Assembly (NCBI GenBank): GCA_025449845.1
Contig: JANWIP010000006.1
Coordinates: 1 to 64,000, forward strand
Source: Solirubrobacteraceae bacterium
GTDB taxonomy: Bacteria > Actinomycetota > Thermoleophilia > Solirubrobacterales > Solirubrobacteraceae
DNA: 64,000 bases
Direction: 5' to 3'
Part shown: positions 4,648-11,312 of the stretch, piece after piece
Layout: each line of letters starts with the position of its first letter
How positions within the stretch are numbered: the stretch's first letter is position 1
Made by a program: the position numbers and the translations under genes
Notes under the pieces: model-generated
Told to the model about the DNA's origin: nothing
Databases searched by the model: none
What the model saw: only the letters and a program-made list of their open reading frames with translations

Positions 4648-4692
4648 GATGCCCCCGGCAGGATTCGAACCTGCGACCCTCGGATTAGAAGT
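4648..4692. repeat. Distal attachment site: 45-bp copy of the tRNA-Arg 3' half
   Basis: This segment is identical over 45 bases to 11237-11281, the 3' half of the intact tRNA-Arg(TCT) gene from the anticodon loop through the acceptor end. It breaks off at the anticodon and is not a tRNA gene itself. It is the displaced original 3' end left when the element entered the tRNA gene. Confidence 0.93.
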
Positions 4693-4838
4693 TGCTCATT
4701 TGCAGGGGTTTTATGCTTTGTAGAGCCGGATTCGATCGGGCTCGATCGGGTCCACAGGGGTCACATCTGCCGAGTCGGGGACGGGCTCGGGACAGAGTCC
4801 TGAAATTCTAGGGTCGAGGAGACCATGAAAGCGCATCG

Positions 4839-5042
4839 TCACCTACCCCTGCCTGGCAACGGCGGGACGGCAAGCTGCTTGCAGATCGCAAGCGCGGTTC
4901 CGCGCGGTATGCGCGAATGCCTCGGAACCGTGACCGGCCTGGAGGCACCGGGAGAGATCCAAACGTCGTGCTTGGGTCCATTGCGCAACAACGACGCCCC
5001 ATGGTTGCGCAGATGCGCTTCGAGATCACGACGGCGGATCAT
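4839..5042 (-). CDS. hicA: HicA-family mRNA interferase toxin
   Basis: A 67-residue protein with the HicA pattern: an N-terminal helix with RRRDLEAHLRNHGA, then the strand GPKHDVWISP containing the conserved histidine of the double-stranded-RNA-binding-like fold, then PVTVPRHSRIPRGTALAICKQL. HicA toxins cleave mRNA and are neutralised by HicB. The start at ATG 5042 (MIRRRD) matches the family N-terminus; the frame continues upstream without homology. The partner hicB lies 118 bp away but on the opposite strand. HicAB pairs are normally co-directional, so this head-to-head arrangement is unusual. Confidence 0.8.
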   Translation of the reverse strand: MIRRRDLEAHLRNHGASLLRNGPKHDVWISPGASRPVTVPRHSRIPRGTALAICKQLAVPPLPGRGR

Positions 5043-5160
5043 GACGCCAATCCCAGCATTGACGGCGGCGTACAAGAACACGCGGCAACACAGGCGGGCG
5101 AACAGCCTCCGCCGCAGAGAGCGAGTGGCCGTGCGTCCAAATTGCTCTACTCTCTCTTAC

Positions 5161-5397
5161 ATGACGCAAGCGCTGACCTTCACCGCGCGGTTCGAGACGG
5201 TCGAGGATGACTGGGTGCAGGCCACAATCGATGAGTTGCCCGGAGTTATCACGGCAGCTCCTTCGCACGAGGAGGCCAAGGACATGCTCGCCGATGCCTT
5301 GCATGCCTATCTTCTCGCACTCGGCGACCTCGAAGAGCGGCCCGACGCAACACCTCGTGGGGACGCCGAGCCTCTGCGCATCACCGTTAGCGCCTAA
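5161..5397 (+). CDS. hicB: HicB-family antitoxin
   Basis: A 78-residue protein with the HicB core: LTFTARFETVEDDWVQATIDELPGVITAAPSHEEAKDMLADALHAYL, the partly degraded RNase H-like fold that binds HicA. The tail is short and contains no recognisable ribbon-helix-helix or HTH domain, so any promoter control must come from elsewhere. ATG 5161 is chosen because the fold begins there; the frame runs open upstream to 4825. It is divergent from hicA, sharing the 5043-5160 spacer, which presumably contains both promoters. Confidence 0.8.
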   Translation: MTQALTFTARFETVEDDWVQATIDELPGVITAAPSHEEAKDMLADALHAYLLALGDLEERPDATPRGDAEPLRITVSA

Positions 5398-5423: not shown

Positions 5424-6038
5424 TCACTGCACCTCACCGTCGCCAGGAGGGAGTTGGCGCGACTGGTCGAACACGAGCGCACGAATAAACGCGGTCAGGC
5501 GCTCAGCGTCGGTGCGATCCAGGCGAGTCGGAAGATGAAGCTGAGCCATCTGCCCCGACTTCAACGGAAACGGGTAGGTGACGACCGACGCCAAACCTTG
5601 CCCTAGCGCTTCCGGCACCACCTCTTGATCACTTCGGACGGGCTTCTTCGACTTGCTGCTCTTGCTATTCGTCGCCGCCCCAGGCGCCGTCGTCCCACGG
5701 GCATTCGTAGAACGAGCCGCTGGCTTCCAATTGGGGTCTGCCAAATAGCTCCTATACGACTCAACCGCTCTACGGAATCGGGAGCGGTACGCAGCCAAGC
5801 TGTCCGCTGAGTACCTGCCCATCGATCGATTCACGAATCGTGCCAGATAGTCGTCGATGTCGAAGCTACGAACATCCAAGCCACCGAAGTCCTCGCCCTC
5901 AACGACGCTAAAGACCTGCTTTGCGGCAGACTTCAAGAGGCTGATTGATCCAGAAGTCCCATAACCCTTCTGGACCATGAAGTCCATGAACGACATGAAC
6001 CCTGCGGCACTACCTGAAGCTATATCCGTGGTCGCCAT
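5424..6038 (-). CDS. Hypothetical mobile-element protein
   Basis: A 204-residue protein. The N-terminal 100 residues are helical and resemble the SAM-like core-binding domain of tyrosine recombinases (FMVQKGYGTSGSISLLKSAAKQVF ... YLARFVNRS..RYSADSLAAYRSRFRRAVESYRSYL). A Ser/Lys-rich linker follows. The C-terminal strand-rich block is YPFPLKSGQMAQLHLPTRLDRTDAERLTAFIRALVFD, a motif I recall from proteins on actinobacterial mobile elements. No catalytic recombinase residues are present. A regulatory or DNA-binding role is possible. Homology statements are from memory. Confidence 0.6.
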   Translation of the reverse strand: MATTDIASGSAAGFMSFMDFMVQKGYGTSGSISLLKSAAKQVFSVVEGEDFGGLDVRSFDIDDYLARFVNRSMGRYSADSLAAYRSRFRRAVESYRSYLADPNWKPAARSTNARGTTAPGAATNSKSSKSKKPVRSDQEVVPEALGQGLASVVTYPFPLKSGQMAQLHLPTRLDRTDAERLTAFIRALVFDQSRQLPPGDGEVQ

Positions 6039-6307: not shown

Positions 6308-6529
6308 CTAGGCGCCGCCCTCGATGCTGTCCCCCAGCCACTCCTCCAACATTGACCGCGTGAAGCGGATGTGGCGACCAATGCGCAGGCAGGGCATTCG
6401 CCCTGTCCGCACGGCTTCATAAATCCAGTTCGTCTTCACGGAGAGCAGGCGGGCGGCCTCCTCCGGGCGAAGGAGTGGCGCGTCGAGCTGAATGGGATCC
6501 GGGTTTGGTGTCGATCGGGCGGTGTCCAT
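6308..6529 (-). CDS. Excisionase-family helix-turn-helix protein
   Basis: A 73-residue DNA-binding protein. Residues 19-68 read LLRPEEAARLLSVKTNWIYEAVRTGRMPCLRIGRHIRFTRSMLEEWL. This is the MerR-like winged HTH of excisionase and 'helix-turn-helix domain' proteins of actinobacterial elements: 'EEAARLL' helix, 'IYEAVRTG' recognition helix and 'RIGRHIRFTRS' wing. It is probably the recombination directionality factor or a repressor for the integrase element. The start at ATG 6529 is preceded by GTCAGTAAGG, a sequence repeated before the divergent relaxase gene. Confidence 0.8.
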   Translation of the reverse strand: MDTARSTPNPDPIQLDAPLLRPEEAARLLSVKTNWIYEAVRTGRMPCLRIGRHIRFTRSMLEEWLGDSIEGGA

Positions 6530-6531
6530 GT

Positions 6532-6935
6532 CCTTACTGACCGTCAACAGCCCAAAGCGGCCAACGAGTTTTTGGACCCGCCTCTTCGAGACGTCGTGCC
6601 GCCGGGCGCCAGCACGACGCTGCTCGACCAGTGAGCGACATCTGCGGCCGTGGTCTCCCGTTGTCTGCACGCGGGCTGCGCCCGCGTTGAAGCGCCTCCC
6701 TGCGGTCGGCTCTCTCGGCTGTCGCGCTGTTCTCCGCCTGGCCTTACCGGCTCTGACGAGCCGGTCCGCTGCGACGCCGGCCAAGGGCGTCGTCTCCGCG
6801 AGGCCATCACACACCGCGACAGCCGAACAGCAACAGCAAAAGCAACGGCAGACCAGATGCACGCCGAGCGAGCCGCTGTCTGTGTGCTGCCAAAAGTTTT
6901 TGGCCGGTTTCGGGTGTTCGCGGTCAGTAAGGGGC
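6532..6935. promoter_or_regulatory. Divergent control region with a long imperfect inverted repeat
   Basis: About 400 bp without a credible gene separates the excisionase-like and relaxase genes. The sequence before each start is nearly the same when read in that gene's direction. Shared pieces are TTGGCCG, then TTT.GG.TGTT, then CGGTCAGTAAGG, over about 45 bases (about 6532-6575 reversed and 6888-6935 forward). The match ends at the two start codons, so it supplies both ribosome binding sites and probably matching operators or promoters. A perfect hairpin, ACGCGGGC-TGC-GCCCGCGT, lies between at 6669-6687. The region is also a reasonable place for an origin of transfer, though no nick site was identified. 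Confidence 0.6.
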
Positions 6936-6938
6936 GTG

Positions 6939-9568
6939 GTGAGCACTGCCAGCATCCCCGCAGACCGCGCTAGCGGCTACGCACAATACCTGGAGTCAAA
7001 GACCGTCGAACACGAACACGGCGCGTACTACCTCACGCCAGATGGTGAGATGACGGAGCCCGCCGGGCGGTGGCTCGCGGCGGCCGAGACCCTGGAGCGC
7101 CTGGGGATCACCACCGGCGAGGTAGTGGACGGCGATGACTTTCTCGCGTTGATGGAAGGCCGCCACCCCGCCACCGGCGAGTGGGTTCGCCGCGAGGGCG
7201 CCGGTGGTGGCCGCGGCGGCGGGATCGACATCACGTTCAGCGCCCCCAAATCCGTATCGGTCATGTGGGCGCTCACCGACCAGTGGCAGCGGGAGACGAT
7301 CGAGCAGGCCCACACCCGCGCCGTGGAACGCTCGATGGCGTATCTGCGGGAACAGGTGCCCGTCGTGCGCCGCCGCTACAGCGGCCAGGTGGTCGAAGAG
7401 CCCGCGCGGGACGTGATCGCAGCGGAGTACCGGCACACCACGGCCCGCGGCGTTACGGATAGCCTGGCGCCGGACCCGCAGCTTCACAGCCACGTCGTGA
7501 TCACCGGTGCGATCCGCGAGGACGACCGGATCGTCGCCGTCGCCTCACGCCCCGTCTTCCGCGCGGCGAGGGAGCTGGGCGCGTTCTACCGCTCCGCGCT
7601 GGCCGAGGAACTGGCCTACGAGGGTTATGGGATCGAGCAGAACACGGGGAAGGGCGGCAAGTACTTCGAGGTCGATGGTGTCCCGCGCGATCTGTGCGAG
7701 TCGTTCTCTGGGCGCTCCAGGGAGGTCGCCCGTGCGGCGGAGCGTTTCCGGGCGCGCTACGGCCGAGCACCGAAGCGTGGGGAGCTGCGCAACCTCGCAC
7801 TCGAGAACCGAGCCACCAAGACCCTCACGATTCGCCCTGATCTGGAACGCGCGTGGCGGGACACCGGGCACGAACACGCCTTTGGCGCCGACCAGGCCGT
7901 GGGATTGATCGCGTTCAACGAGCCACCGCAGCACGAGCGGCCGGTGGAGGATCGCATCGAAGCGAGGCTGACTGAGCACAAGGCGATCTTCGAGGCGAAG
8001 GAGCTGCGCACCGTCGCGCTGGAGCAAACCGCCGGAGATGCCACCAGCGCAGGCCCTCGCAGTCGCCAGAGAAATGGTCCGCGACCGCCGCATCCTGACC
8101 CTGCAGGGCGGGCAGATGACGACCCTCGCCATCCGCGCACAGGAGCAGCGATCGAACGCCGCGCCACGCAGCTCGCCCAGCCAGCCGGACGCGACGTCGG
8201 CCAAGCCATACGCGAGAACGCCGCCCGCGAAGTCGCCGAGCGTATCTCCGCACCCTTGAGCCCCGAGCAACAGCACGCGCTCGCGGTCCTCACCGGTCCA
8301 GAGCGCGTCGCCGTGCTCGTTGGACCCGCCGGCACCGGCAAGGGCGTCGTGATCGACGCCGCCGCACGCGCCGAGCAGCTCGCAGCCCGCGAAACGATCG
8401 GCGTCGCCGTGTCATGGTCCACCGCCGAGCGCCTCGCCACCGACAGCCCCGCCCTACACAAGCAAACGATGGCACTCGACGCCCTCATCACCCGCGCGCA
8501 AGCCGGGACCGTTCACGTCGGACCGGACACAACGATCATCCTCGACGAGGCCGGGATGACCGACCACACCCGCATGGCCGCGCTCACCGAGCTCGTGGAG
8601 CGCTCCGGTGGAAAGCTGATCGCGGTCGGCGACGGCAAACAGCTCCCCTCCATCGGACCCGGCGGCATGTTCTACCGCCTCGCCAACCACGCCCCCACCG
8701 CAGAGCTGCAGACCATCCACCGCACCAAAGACCCCGCCGAGCAACACGCCTGGCGAGCACTCCGCAACGGGGAACCCAGCCGCGCGCTCGCGCACTACGC
8801 CTCGCGCGGAGCGCTCCACGTCGCCGAGACCCACGACCAGGCCGCCGAGAACGCCGTCCAAGCATGGGCACAGCTCACCCGAGAACACCCCATCCGCGAC
8901 ATCGCGCTCATCGCCGACGCCTCCAACCAAGAAATCGACCGCCTCAATGCCCGCGCCCAACACCTCCGCCTCGAACACGGCGAACTCGGCCAGCACGAAA
9001 CCCAACTCCCCCACGTCCACTACGGCATCCGCCAAGGCGACCTCATCGCGTTCACCCACCAACACCGCCCACCCCGAGCACCCCGCGTCGAGAACGGCAC
9101 CGCGGCGAAATCACCCGCCTCTACACCGACGGCAGCGCAAGCATCGTCCTCGACGGGTCAGACCGCCACGTCACCCTCGCCCCCAACGACCTCAAATCGA
9201 TCCGCCTCGCCTACGCCCAACACGTCTACCGCCAGCAAGGCGCGACCGTCGAGCGCGCCATCGTCCTTACCGGCGGATGGCAAACCAGCAAAGAGACCGC
9301 CTACGTCGAGGCCACACGCGCACGCCAACGCACCGATTGGCACATCGCCCGCCAGGACCTCGCCCCCGACCGCCAAGACCTCGACCCCATCGTGCGCCTC
9401 GCCCAGCGCATGACCCGCAGCCGAGCGCACACCTCAACCACCACCCAACGAGAGCGACCCGTCCGCACTTGGGAGAATCCCTACGACCCAGAGTATCTCG
9501 ACGACCCCTTCTCACGCACCTCCTGGCCCACCTGGATACGAGACCACGACCTCGACCGGGGCCGCTGA
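6939..9568 (+). pseudogene. traA: MobF/TraA-type relaxase-helicase, frameshifted
   Basis: A conjugative relaxase with N-terminal TrwC-type nicking domain and C-terminal RecD-like helicase. The nicking domain shows a Tyr pair (HGAYYLTP), DITFSAPKSVSV and the three-histidine metal motif DPQLHSHVV. The helicase shows Walker A GPAGTGKG, Walker B ILDEAGMTD, GDGKQLPSIGPGG and VYRQQGATVERA. GTG 6939 is preceded by AAGGGG. The frame is broken near 8031-8037 (+1), restored near 8146-8150 (-1), and broken again at 9099-9103 (-1). The last part then reads on in another frame to 9568. All three breaks lie in runs of G or C, so either real decay or sequencing error is possible. Confidence 0.85.
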
Positions 9569-9881: not shown

Positions 9882-11093
9882 TCAATCACCAGCTGCCGGA
9901 CGCCCTCTGTCGGTAGACGCACTAGACGGCGGGCGCAGCCAGCGCTCGTCCCCATCGACCGCCCCGAACGCCGCGGACAGCCTCCTGGCTGCGTCCGCTC
10001 GCGGCCTGTAGTGCATGTAAATCTGCGTGGTTGAGAAGTCGGAGTGCCCCATCCACTCCTGAAGCTCGCGCGGGTCCACTGTGCGGATGGCGACACTGCC
10101 GAACGTATGCCGCAGATCGTGGAAGCGCAACGGCCGCAGCCCCGCCGCATCCCGCGCCCGCTTGAAGCGCCTGCGCAGCGCCGACCCGTCCAGATACTCC
10201 CCCGTCTGCCCGACGAACACCACATCGTCCGGCCCGGTCCAGCGCTCCCGATTACCAAGCCGCGCCAGCGCCTCCGCGACCTCCTGAACGAGCGGGACCG
10301 CCCGACCCAACCCCGACTTCGGCGTGCCGAGCTTCCCGACGGTATAGCTCGCCGTGACGCGCACGGTCTGCGCAGAGAAGTCCACATCGCGCCAGCGCAG
10401 CGCGAGCAGCTCCCCCATTCGTAGCCCGGTCATGGCTGCCGTCAAGAACAGCGCCCCGTCCTGCTTGTCGTGCGCGGCCCGCACGAGCGCGTGGACCTCC
10501 TCGGGCGAATAGAACTCGATGTCGGTGCGCTGCGGCGCGGTCACGCGCTCGATGTCGGCGACGGGGTTCTGCGGCAGCTTCCAGACCTTGCGCGCGCGCT
10601 TGAAGATGCCGTTCAGCAGCACGACGAACTTCTGCAGGCTTCGCCGCGACAGCTCGCCGTCGCGCAGCTGCCCGGAGAGCCACCGTTCGATTGTCTCCGA
10701 GTCGATCCGCTCAAGCGGCATATCGCCGAACGCCGGCAGCAGATGCGCGCGCACGACCGAGCGGTAGTCGGCGAGCGTGGATGCCTTGTGCCCGCGCTCC
10801 TGTTCGACGTAGCGCAGCCACTCGGCAGCGGCGTCAGCGAACGTCGCGCCCGTGCGCACCATCCCCGACAGCGTCCCCCGGTGCGCCTGGTCGAGCACGT
10901 CGCGCAGCCACGCCTCGGCGGTGCGCTTCGTGAAGCACCCCTCCGCCGGGCGCCCCCGCTGCGTCCAGGCTGGCCCGAGCGCCTTCTGCACCTGGCGCCC
11001 ATCGGGCAGCCGGTACTTGGCATACCAGCGCGGCCCGCGCTTGCCATCGACCCTGAAAACGTGTCCGCTGATTGGTCTGACGCTGCCGTTCAT
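9882..11093 (-). CDS. int: Tyrosine-family site-specific integrase
   Basis: A 403-residue integrase. It has an N-terminal arm-type DNA-binding domain (RWYAKYRLPDGRQVQKALG), a core-binding SAM-like domain at about 80-165, and a catalytic domain at 195-380. Catalytic residues are all visible: Arg225 (TGLRMGE), Lys259 (TPKSG), His325 and Arg328 (HDLRH), His350 (GHSD) and nucleophile Tyr359 (IYMHY). It should catalyse integration and excision at tRNA-Arg. The gene is 143 bp from the intact tRNA, as is usual for tRNA-targeting islands, and it is intact, unlike the relaxase. Confidence 0.95.
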   Translation of the reverse strand: MNGSVRPISGHVFRVDGKRGPRWYAKYRLPDGRQVQKALGPAWTQRGRPAEGCFTKRTAEAWLRDVLDQAHRGTLSGMVRTGATFADAAAEWLRYVEQERGHKASTLADYRSVVRAHLLPAFGDMPLERIDSETIERWLSGQLRDGELSRRSLQKFVVLLNGIFKRARKVWKLPQNPVADIERVTAPQRTDIEFYSPEEVHALVRAAHDKQDGALFLTAAMTGLRMGELLALRWRDVDFSAQTVRVTASYTVGKLGTPKSGLGRAVPLVQEVAEALARLGNRERWTGPDDVVFVGQTGEYLDGSALRRRFKRARDAAGLRPLRFHDLRHTFGSVAIRTVDPRELQEWMGHSDFSTTQIYMHYRPRADAARRLSAAFGAVDGDERWLRPPSSASTDRGRPAAGD

Positions 11094-11236: not shown

Positions 11237-11281
11237 GATGCCCCCGGCAGGATTCGAACCTGCGACCCTCGGATTAGAAGT
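11237..11281. repeat. Proximal attachment site within tRNA-Arg
   Basis: This 45-bp segment is identical to 4648-4692. Here it is part of the complete tRNA gene, so the element carries its own copy of the 3' half and restores a working tRNA on integration. Confidence 0.93.
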
Positions 11282-11312
11282 CCGACGCTCTATCCAGCTG
11301 AGCTACGGGGGC
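11239..11312 (-). tRNA. tRNA-Arg (anticodon TCT)
   Basis: A complete 74-base cloverleaf on the minus strand. The acceptor stem is GCCCCCG/CGGGGGC with discriminator A, the anticodon loop carries TCT and the T loop is TTCGAAT. CCA is not encoded. Its 3' half is supplied by the mobile element at 4648-11281. Confidence 0.95.

Follow-up and report, generated by a model that had tools for sequence, protein, structure and literature searches.

The window analysed here is the whole 64,000-nucleotide stretch of contig JANWIP010000006.1 from a Solirubrobacteraceae bacterium. It contains a predicted hicA toxin gene and a predicted hicB antitoxin gene that lie head to head, hicA on the minus strand and hicB on the plus strand, 118 bp apart. 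A preliminary description had reported this divergent pair, and both open reading frames were confirmed at its coordinates and on its strands. The features of the locus and of the DNA around it are as follows.

4648–4692, no strand: att repeat of 45 bp, identical to the 3' end of tRNA-Arg, adjoining hicA (repeat comparison)
4839–5042, minus: hicA, toxin, 67 aa (PF07927, 38.9 bits)
5043–5160, no strand: divergent spacer of 118 bp, without inverted repeat or sigma-70-type consensus promoter
5148–5153, plus: TACTCT, a -10-like TAnnnT hexamer 7 nt before the hicB ATG, of leaderless type
5161–5397, plus: hicB, antitoxin, 78 aa, partial RNase H fold (PF21748 at the cut-off; structure model and Foldseek)
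5424–6038: 204-aa open reading frame adjoining hicB, with no Pfam family and a weak match to PHROG 2602 (unknown function)
6308–6529, minus: excisionase-type helix-turn-helix protein (TIGR01764, PF12728)
6909–9413, plus: TrwC relaxase with helicase domain (PF08751, 212.9 bits)
9882–11093, minus: tyrosine integrase (PF00589, 109.6 bits)
11237–11281, no strand: second 45-bp att copy, inside tRNA-Arg (11239–11312) (repeat comparison)

The HicA score against the Pfam family HicA_toxin was well above the cut-off of 27 (E 9.5e-10), and the protein also matched a PHROG annotated as "toxin" (1.1e-10). The codon-position G+C signal of the gene is weak (0.64/0.58/0.72), so the case for hicA as a gene rests on homology; an earlier start is possible at a GTG at 5081. 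The H-x-x-W and PRH motifs were invariant in all ten rows of the HicA alignment (A4), and the histidine of H-x-x-W would be the catalytic residue of an active site, by analogy with the accessible part of a 2024 HicAB review (PMC11594946). HicB matched UPF0150 (PF21748) with 27.3 bits, which is exactly the cut-off (E 3.5e-6), and a HicB-like PHROG (1.1e-6); neither protein of the window was matched by NCBIfam or PADLOC. A structure model of HicB built from eight relatives (pLDDT 77) presented a strand-strand-strand-helix order followed by a low-confidence tail, with the final strand not formed. Its nearest Foldseek matches were the N-terminal domain of the Burkholderia pseudomallei HicB (6g1c) and TTHA0281 (2dsy), both with probability 1.00 and the best E-value being 2.5e-3. 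Neither Pfam nor the model placed a DNA-binding domain in HicB, and 78 aa leave no room for one. We infer that HicA would be an RNA-cutting toxin and that HicB would cover its active site.

The two att copies flank the integrase, excisionase and relaxase genes and therefore place the hicA-hicB pair at one end of a 6.6-kb element. With all of these parts present, this is an integrated mobilisable element at tRNA-Arg. By eye, the C-terminal end of the relaxase-helicase looks frameshifted, with two overlapping plus-strand frames at 6492–9568. The relaxase and integrase parts of the element are matched widely in the genus, and the hicA-hicB part (query 240–798) was covered by none among the matches listed outside the window (24 genomes); the pair therefore appears to be variable cargo. 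As cargo, it probably helps to retain the element.

The HicB query matched 38 of the 232 genomes of the order, at 45 places, and the HicA query 42 of the same 232. At the five best of the 45 HicB places (G000, G074, G107, G043 and G038), hicB lies head to head with hicA or, in G038, with a hicA remnant only; the remaining readable places in the order have hicB-hicA on one strand or are without detected hicA. Because the nearest relatives have the same arrangement, it exceeds what chance would give, and a chance layout was rejected. A profile made from the five best HicBs was run on 399 genomes of the class and matched 84 of them. Its best nine places were all head to head, and the scanned class loci below 67 bits were co-directional or without detected hicA, with one exception, the decayed locus G374. 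The genome_contigs collection yielded no close relatives when searched with the window HicB and seven loci with the profile, four of them on the same contigs as G074, G107, G043 and G038, and L074 matching G598. A wider profile applied to 396 genomes drawn from the phylum added two further members, G460, which is head to head, and G598, in which hicB lies near a contig end and hicA was not detected. Beside this head-to-head-type hicB of G598 (L119:100-420), a few hundred bases off on the opposite strand, we noted a small cysteine-containing open reading frame that is HicA-like by eye. One candidate, G134, was rejected as a head-to-head locus: its HicB-like match is weak, and the hicA lying 601 bp away has a partner of its own.

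In the viral contigs no close relatives of the window HicB or HicA were found, and in the plasmids and phages none of the window HicB. A scan of the viral contigs with the HicA alignment gave seven distant HicA loci, with HicB undetected at all of them. Six distant plasmid matches were found for HicA, and the two that were opened had one hicA co-directional with hicB and one without detected hicB.

When loci L001–L132 were pooled they contained 83 different HicBs: 60 in hicB-hicA order, 15 head to head, seven without detected hicA and one in hicA-hicB order. An E-value limit of 1e-15, applied for the trees, removed G134, the hicA-hicB case of G399, L002, L025 and two L100 pieces, and left 77 HicB rows, 14 of them head to head and 58 co-directional. 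The search for divergent hicA/hicB loci in other genomes, which the preliminary description had proposed, was thus rewarded with 14 distinct loci in the order, class and phylum of the window, two of which have a truncated hicA; some carry one extra gene between hicA and hicB. Several genera and families retain the layout: its rows belong to three families within the class, to one more family elsewhere in the phylum, and to records titled Corynebacteriales and Chloroflexi, of which the Chloroflexi record may be misbinned.

In a tree of HicB only, the 14 head-to-head rows fell on one side of a branch and the co-directional rows on the other, weakly (60/85). A joint tree of HicA and HicB was built from 58 pairs with truncated HicAs excluded, and here the 12 head-to-head pairs in which HicA is nearly complete occupied one side of a branch with support of 93/91; the same 12-pair split occurred in 94% of 200 bootstrap trees. 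Only one change of layout is needed on the joint tree, versus a mean of 11.1 with shuffled labels. These trees indicate that the head-to-head hic pairs are one conserved lineage, to which the co-directional hicB-hicA relatives are more distant. Within it, we refer to one family, whose six loci have spacers of 44–52 bp (counted by hand), as f7. Their flanks differ, except in two species of one genus, and these mostly unshared flanks suggest that the modules move; G043 and G038 have common neighbours.

The spacer of the window was also searched for signals of control. No inverted repeat was found in 5020–5180, and a consensus promoter scan of the window found nothing. In actinobacteria, a TAnnnT hexamer 6–7 nt before an in-frame start is the signature of a leaderless gene. 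Such a hexamer precedes the in-frame hicB start in 11 of 15 head-to-head rows; the shuffles left the motif untouched in G399 and G315, which makes the expectation meaningless for those two rows, and without them the count is 9 of 13, versus about 0.34 expected. The same signature was present in 33 of 58 co-directional rows (0.87 expected from shuffles), so it is a property of the hicB family and not of the layout. Leaderless genes in actinobacteria are treated in PMC3160421 and PMC3898074, in the parts available to us. The divergent layout requires a second promoter for hicA. The same -10-like pattern indicated none before hicA in the window, G074 or G043, and in five of the six f7 loci (G/A)ATACT stands 6–7 nt before the hicA start, which in f7 is mostly GTG, the hicB start being ATG. 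With so short a spacer and outward -10-like signals for both genes, the two outward promoters of f7 would overlap.

Three of the relatives (G107, L073 and G460) encode a protein of about 250 aa, here called W, together with hicA, overlapping it or adjacent to it, and divergent from hicB. W was read at the following places.

L072:5003-5761: W
L073:5089-5880: W
L120:511-1251: W

W itself matched no Pfam family, and its relatives give weak helix-turn-helix matches. The W model was poor (pLDDT 52, with residues 161–220 at 67–83) and had no Foldseek match at E<=0.001; its C-terminal half suggests a winged helix. Relatives of W were found in six of 151 genomes of the order and in 59 actinobacterial plasmid records, mostly beside other genes, and in three (L149, L152 and L153) of the 12 plasmid records opened an Abi family gene comes next downstream. 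We therefore rejected W as a dedicated hic partner, its relatives not being confined to toxin-antitoxin loci. Two relatives of W (L134:2209-2874 and L136:2201-2934) lie beside a small gene that is divergent from a DUF2283-like gene, which is possibly another divergent toxin-antitoxin-like layout. By eye, genes adjoining W in L134, L136 and L135 look DUF2283/DUF4258-like and GNAT-like, and Pfam supports only the DUF2283 of L134, below the cut-off.

Taken together, these observations lead us to consider it probable that a small-HicB pair was turned head to head a single time, in an ancestor that belonged to Actinomycetota or stood close to it, that the layout has persisted since, and that separate promoters, not an antitoxin repressor, set the ratio of the two proteins. 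Genes on opposite strands share no message, and a bare HicB fold is not expected to repress; to this extent the preliminary description was right not to expect classical autoregulation. HicB would cap HicA as in known pairs. Its gene would have a promoter of its own that yields a leaderless message, which would make the antitoxin independent of translational coupling to hicA, and hicA would be transcribed from a separate promoter. The geometry of the promoters and the strength of the starts, rather than antitoxin repression, would then determine the HicA:HicB ratio. In f7, RNA polymerase at one overlapping promoter would hinder the other, and in G107, L073 and G460 the W protein made with hicA could act as a regulator. 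A stronger version, that these loci form a separate class without antitoxin-as-repressor, based on mutually excluding divergent leaderless promoters and with a winged-helix protein as an optional regulator, we put forward only tentatively and with low confidence.

Control could instead lie in RNA, if the 5' ends of the two transcripts overlap and are antisense to each other in an excludon-like manner, such that transcription of the antitoxin silences hicA. The hicB frame of the window is open across the hicA antisense as a 190-aa plus-strand frame (4825–5397), and that of G043 is open far upstream; an excludon-like arrangement has also been described around another type II pair in the available part of PMC4963859. 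However, antisense open frames are common in G+C-rich DNA, and with leaderless-type signals the hicB RNA would begin at its ATG, with no overlap left, and we regard this explanation as unlikely. We likewise consider it improbable that the module is dying, with hicA fading, hicB retained by chance and the balance of the two irrelevant. The damaged partner is indeed hicA and not hicB in G038 and L071 (two of the 14 head-to-head loci), where the 5' half is gone, the hicA of G239 seems frameshifted, and in G374 a deletion has joined the beginning of W with the last part of HicA, so that this fusion alone remains opposite a split hicB. Yet HicA is near-full in 12 of the 14 loci over long branches, with its motif residues invariant in the ten aligned, and the loss of hicA with hicB kept in G038 and L071 also fits a toxin and its antidote.

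That hicA and hicB of the window are unrelated neighbours, each partnered otherwise, appears very improbable to us. In a test of co-evolution, the correlation of HicA and HicB distances vanished when f7 was reduced to one representative (r 0.00, seven rows), and in G399 a second hicB-hicA pair stands right behind the head-to-head pair; against this, the same two subfamilies are found side by side in 14 loci, and in the genome of the window no hicB other than the divergent one was detected near hicA, so that the co-directional partner considered in the preliminary description was not seen. The hicB behind the head-to-head pair of G399 was considered as a second, co-directional partner for hicA and rejected, being itself followed by its own HicA-like gene (by eye). 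With this second hicB and the HicA-like gene, G399 (L084:2020-2400) contains two hic modules in tandem. Many of the loci come from metagenome assemblies, but independent assemblies agree, among them G239, whose genome is a single contig, and G315, with a contig of 786 kb, and an assembly or binning artefact is hardly credible. 

Regulators apart from the antitoxin are known from omega-epsilon-zeta and PaaR-PaaA-ParE, which are single operons with a separate regulator beside an antitoxin without a DNA-binding domain; W might resemble these regulators, although the families there differ. The classical hicAB modules whose HicB has an HTH or RHH domain (Escherichia coli, Yersinia pestis, B. pseudomallei) have the HicA fold family and the neutralising domain of HicB in common with the window pair. 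Unlike them, the window pair has no DNA-binding domain, no operator repeat was found, and its layout allows no shared transcript; an operator repeat and a DNA-binding antitoxin, the features of an autoregulated type II module, are both absent from it by sequence and model. E. coli hicAB has two promoters of the same direction, according to the accessible part of PMC11594946.

In the available part of Gerdes 2024 (PMC10865869), the broadest HicA survey consulted, HicA is described in 14 contexts, of which Classes 1–10 are bicistronic operons, 11–13 are fused genes and 14 is an SMC fusion. This agrees with the preliminary description that hicAB loci are normally one operon. It had also pointed to the lack of a DNA-binding domain in HicB; the lack itself stands by Pfam and the model, but it does not set this HicB apart, given that Classes 1 and 2 consist of small HicBs without such a domain and are the most prevalent. 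These two classes had not been studied experimentally at that time, according to the same part of the paper, which also raises the question of what regulates the many hic loci whose antitoxin does not bind DNA. Its main text uses none of the words "divergent", "opposite" and "head-to-head", and none of the 14 contexts is divergent; the 2024 review, in its accessible part, contains neither "divergent" nor "orientation", and our searches of open-licence papers turned up no divergent hicA/hicB.

Among the closest known systems is Class 2 hicBA, as presented in the available part of PMC10865869, which is like the window pair in families, sizes and the absent DNA-binding domain, and which the co-directional hicB-hicA relatives found here resemble. 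Class 2 is bicistronic, with hicB before hicA and the genes mostly overlapping or closely linked, suggesting translational coupling, whereas the genes of the window pair and of the 14 loci lie on opposite strands. This excludes translational coupling and a shared transcript, so that control must come from the strength of the promoters, from exclusion of one by the other, from antisense RNA or from a third protein. An analogy, and no more than that, is offered by the Ecl18kI restriction-modification system (PMC3874152, in the part available), in which divergent toxin-like and antitoxin-like genes are balanced by promoter competition; the proteins there are unrelated, the promoters point towards one another and the methyltransferase acts as its own repressor. 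New in comparison with these systems is the divergent layout of small-HicB hic modules, probably with control by promoter geometry, and this head-to-head lineage makes the question of how hic loci without DNA-binding antitoxins are regulated a testable one.
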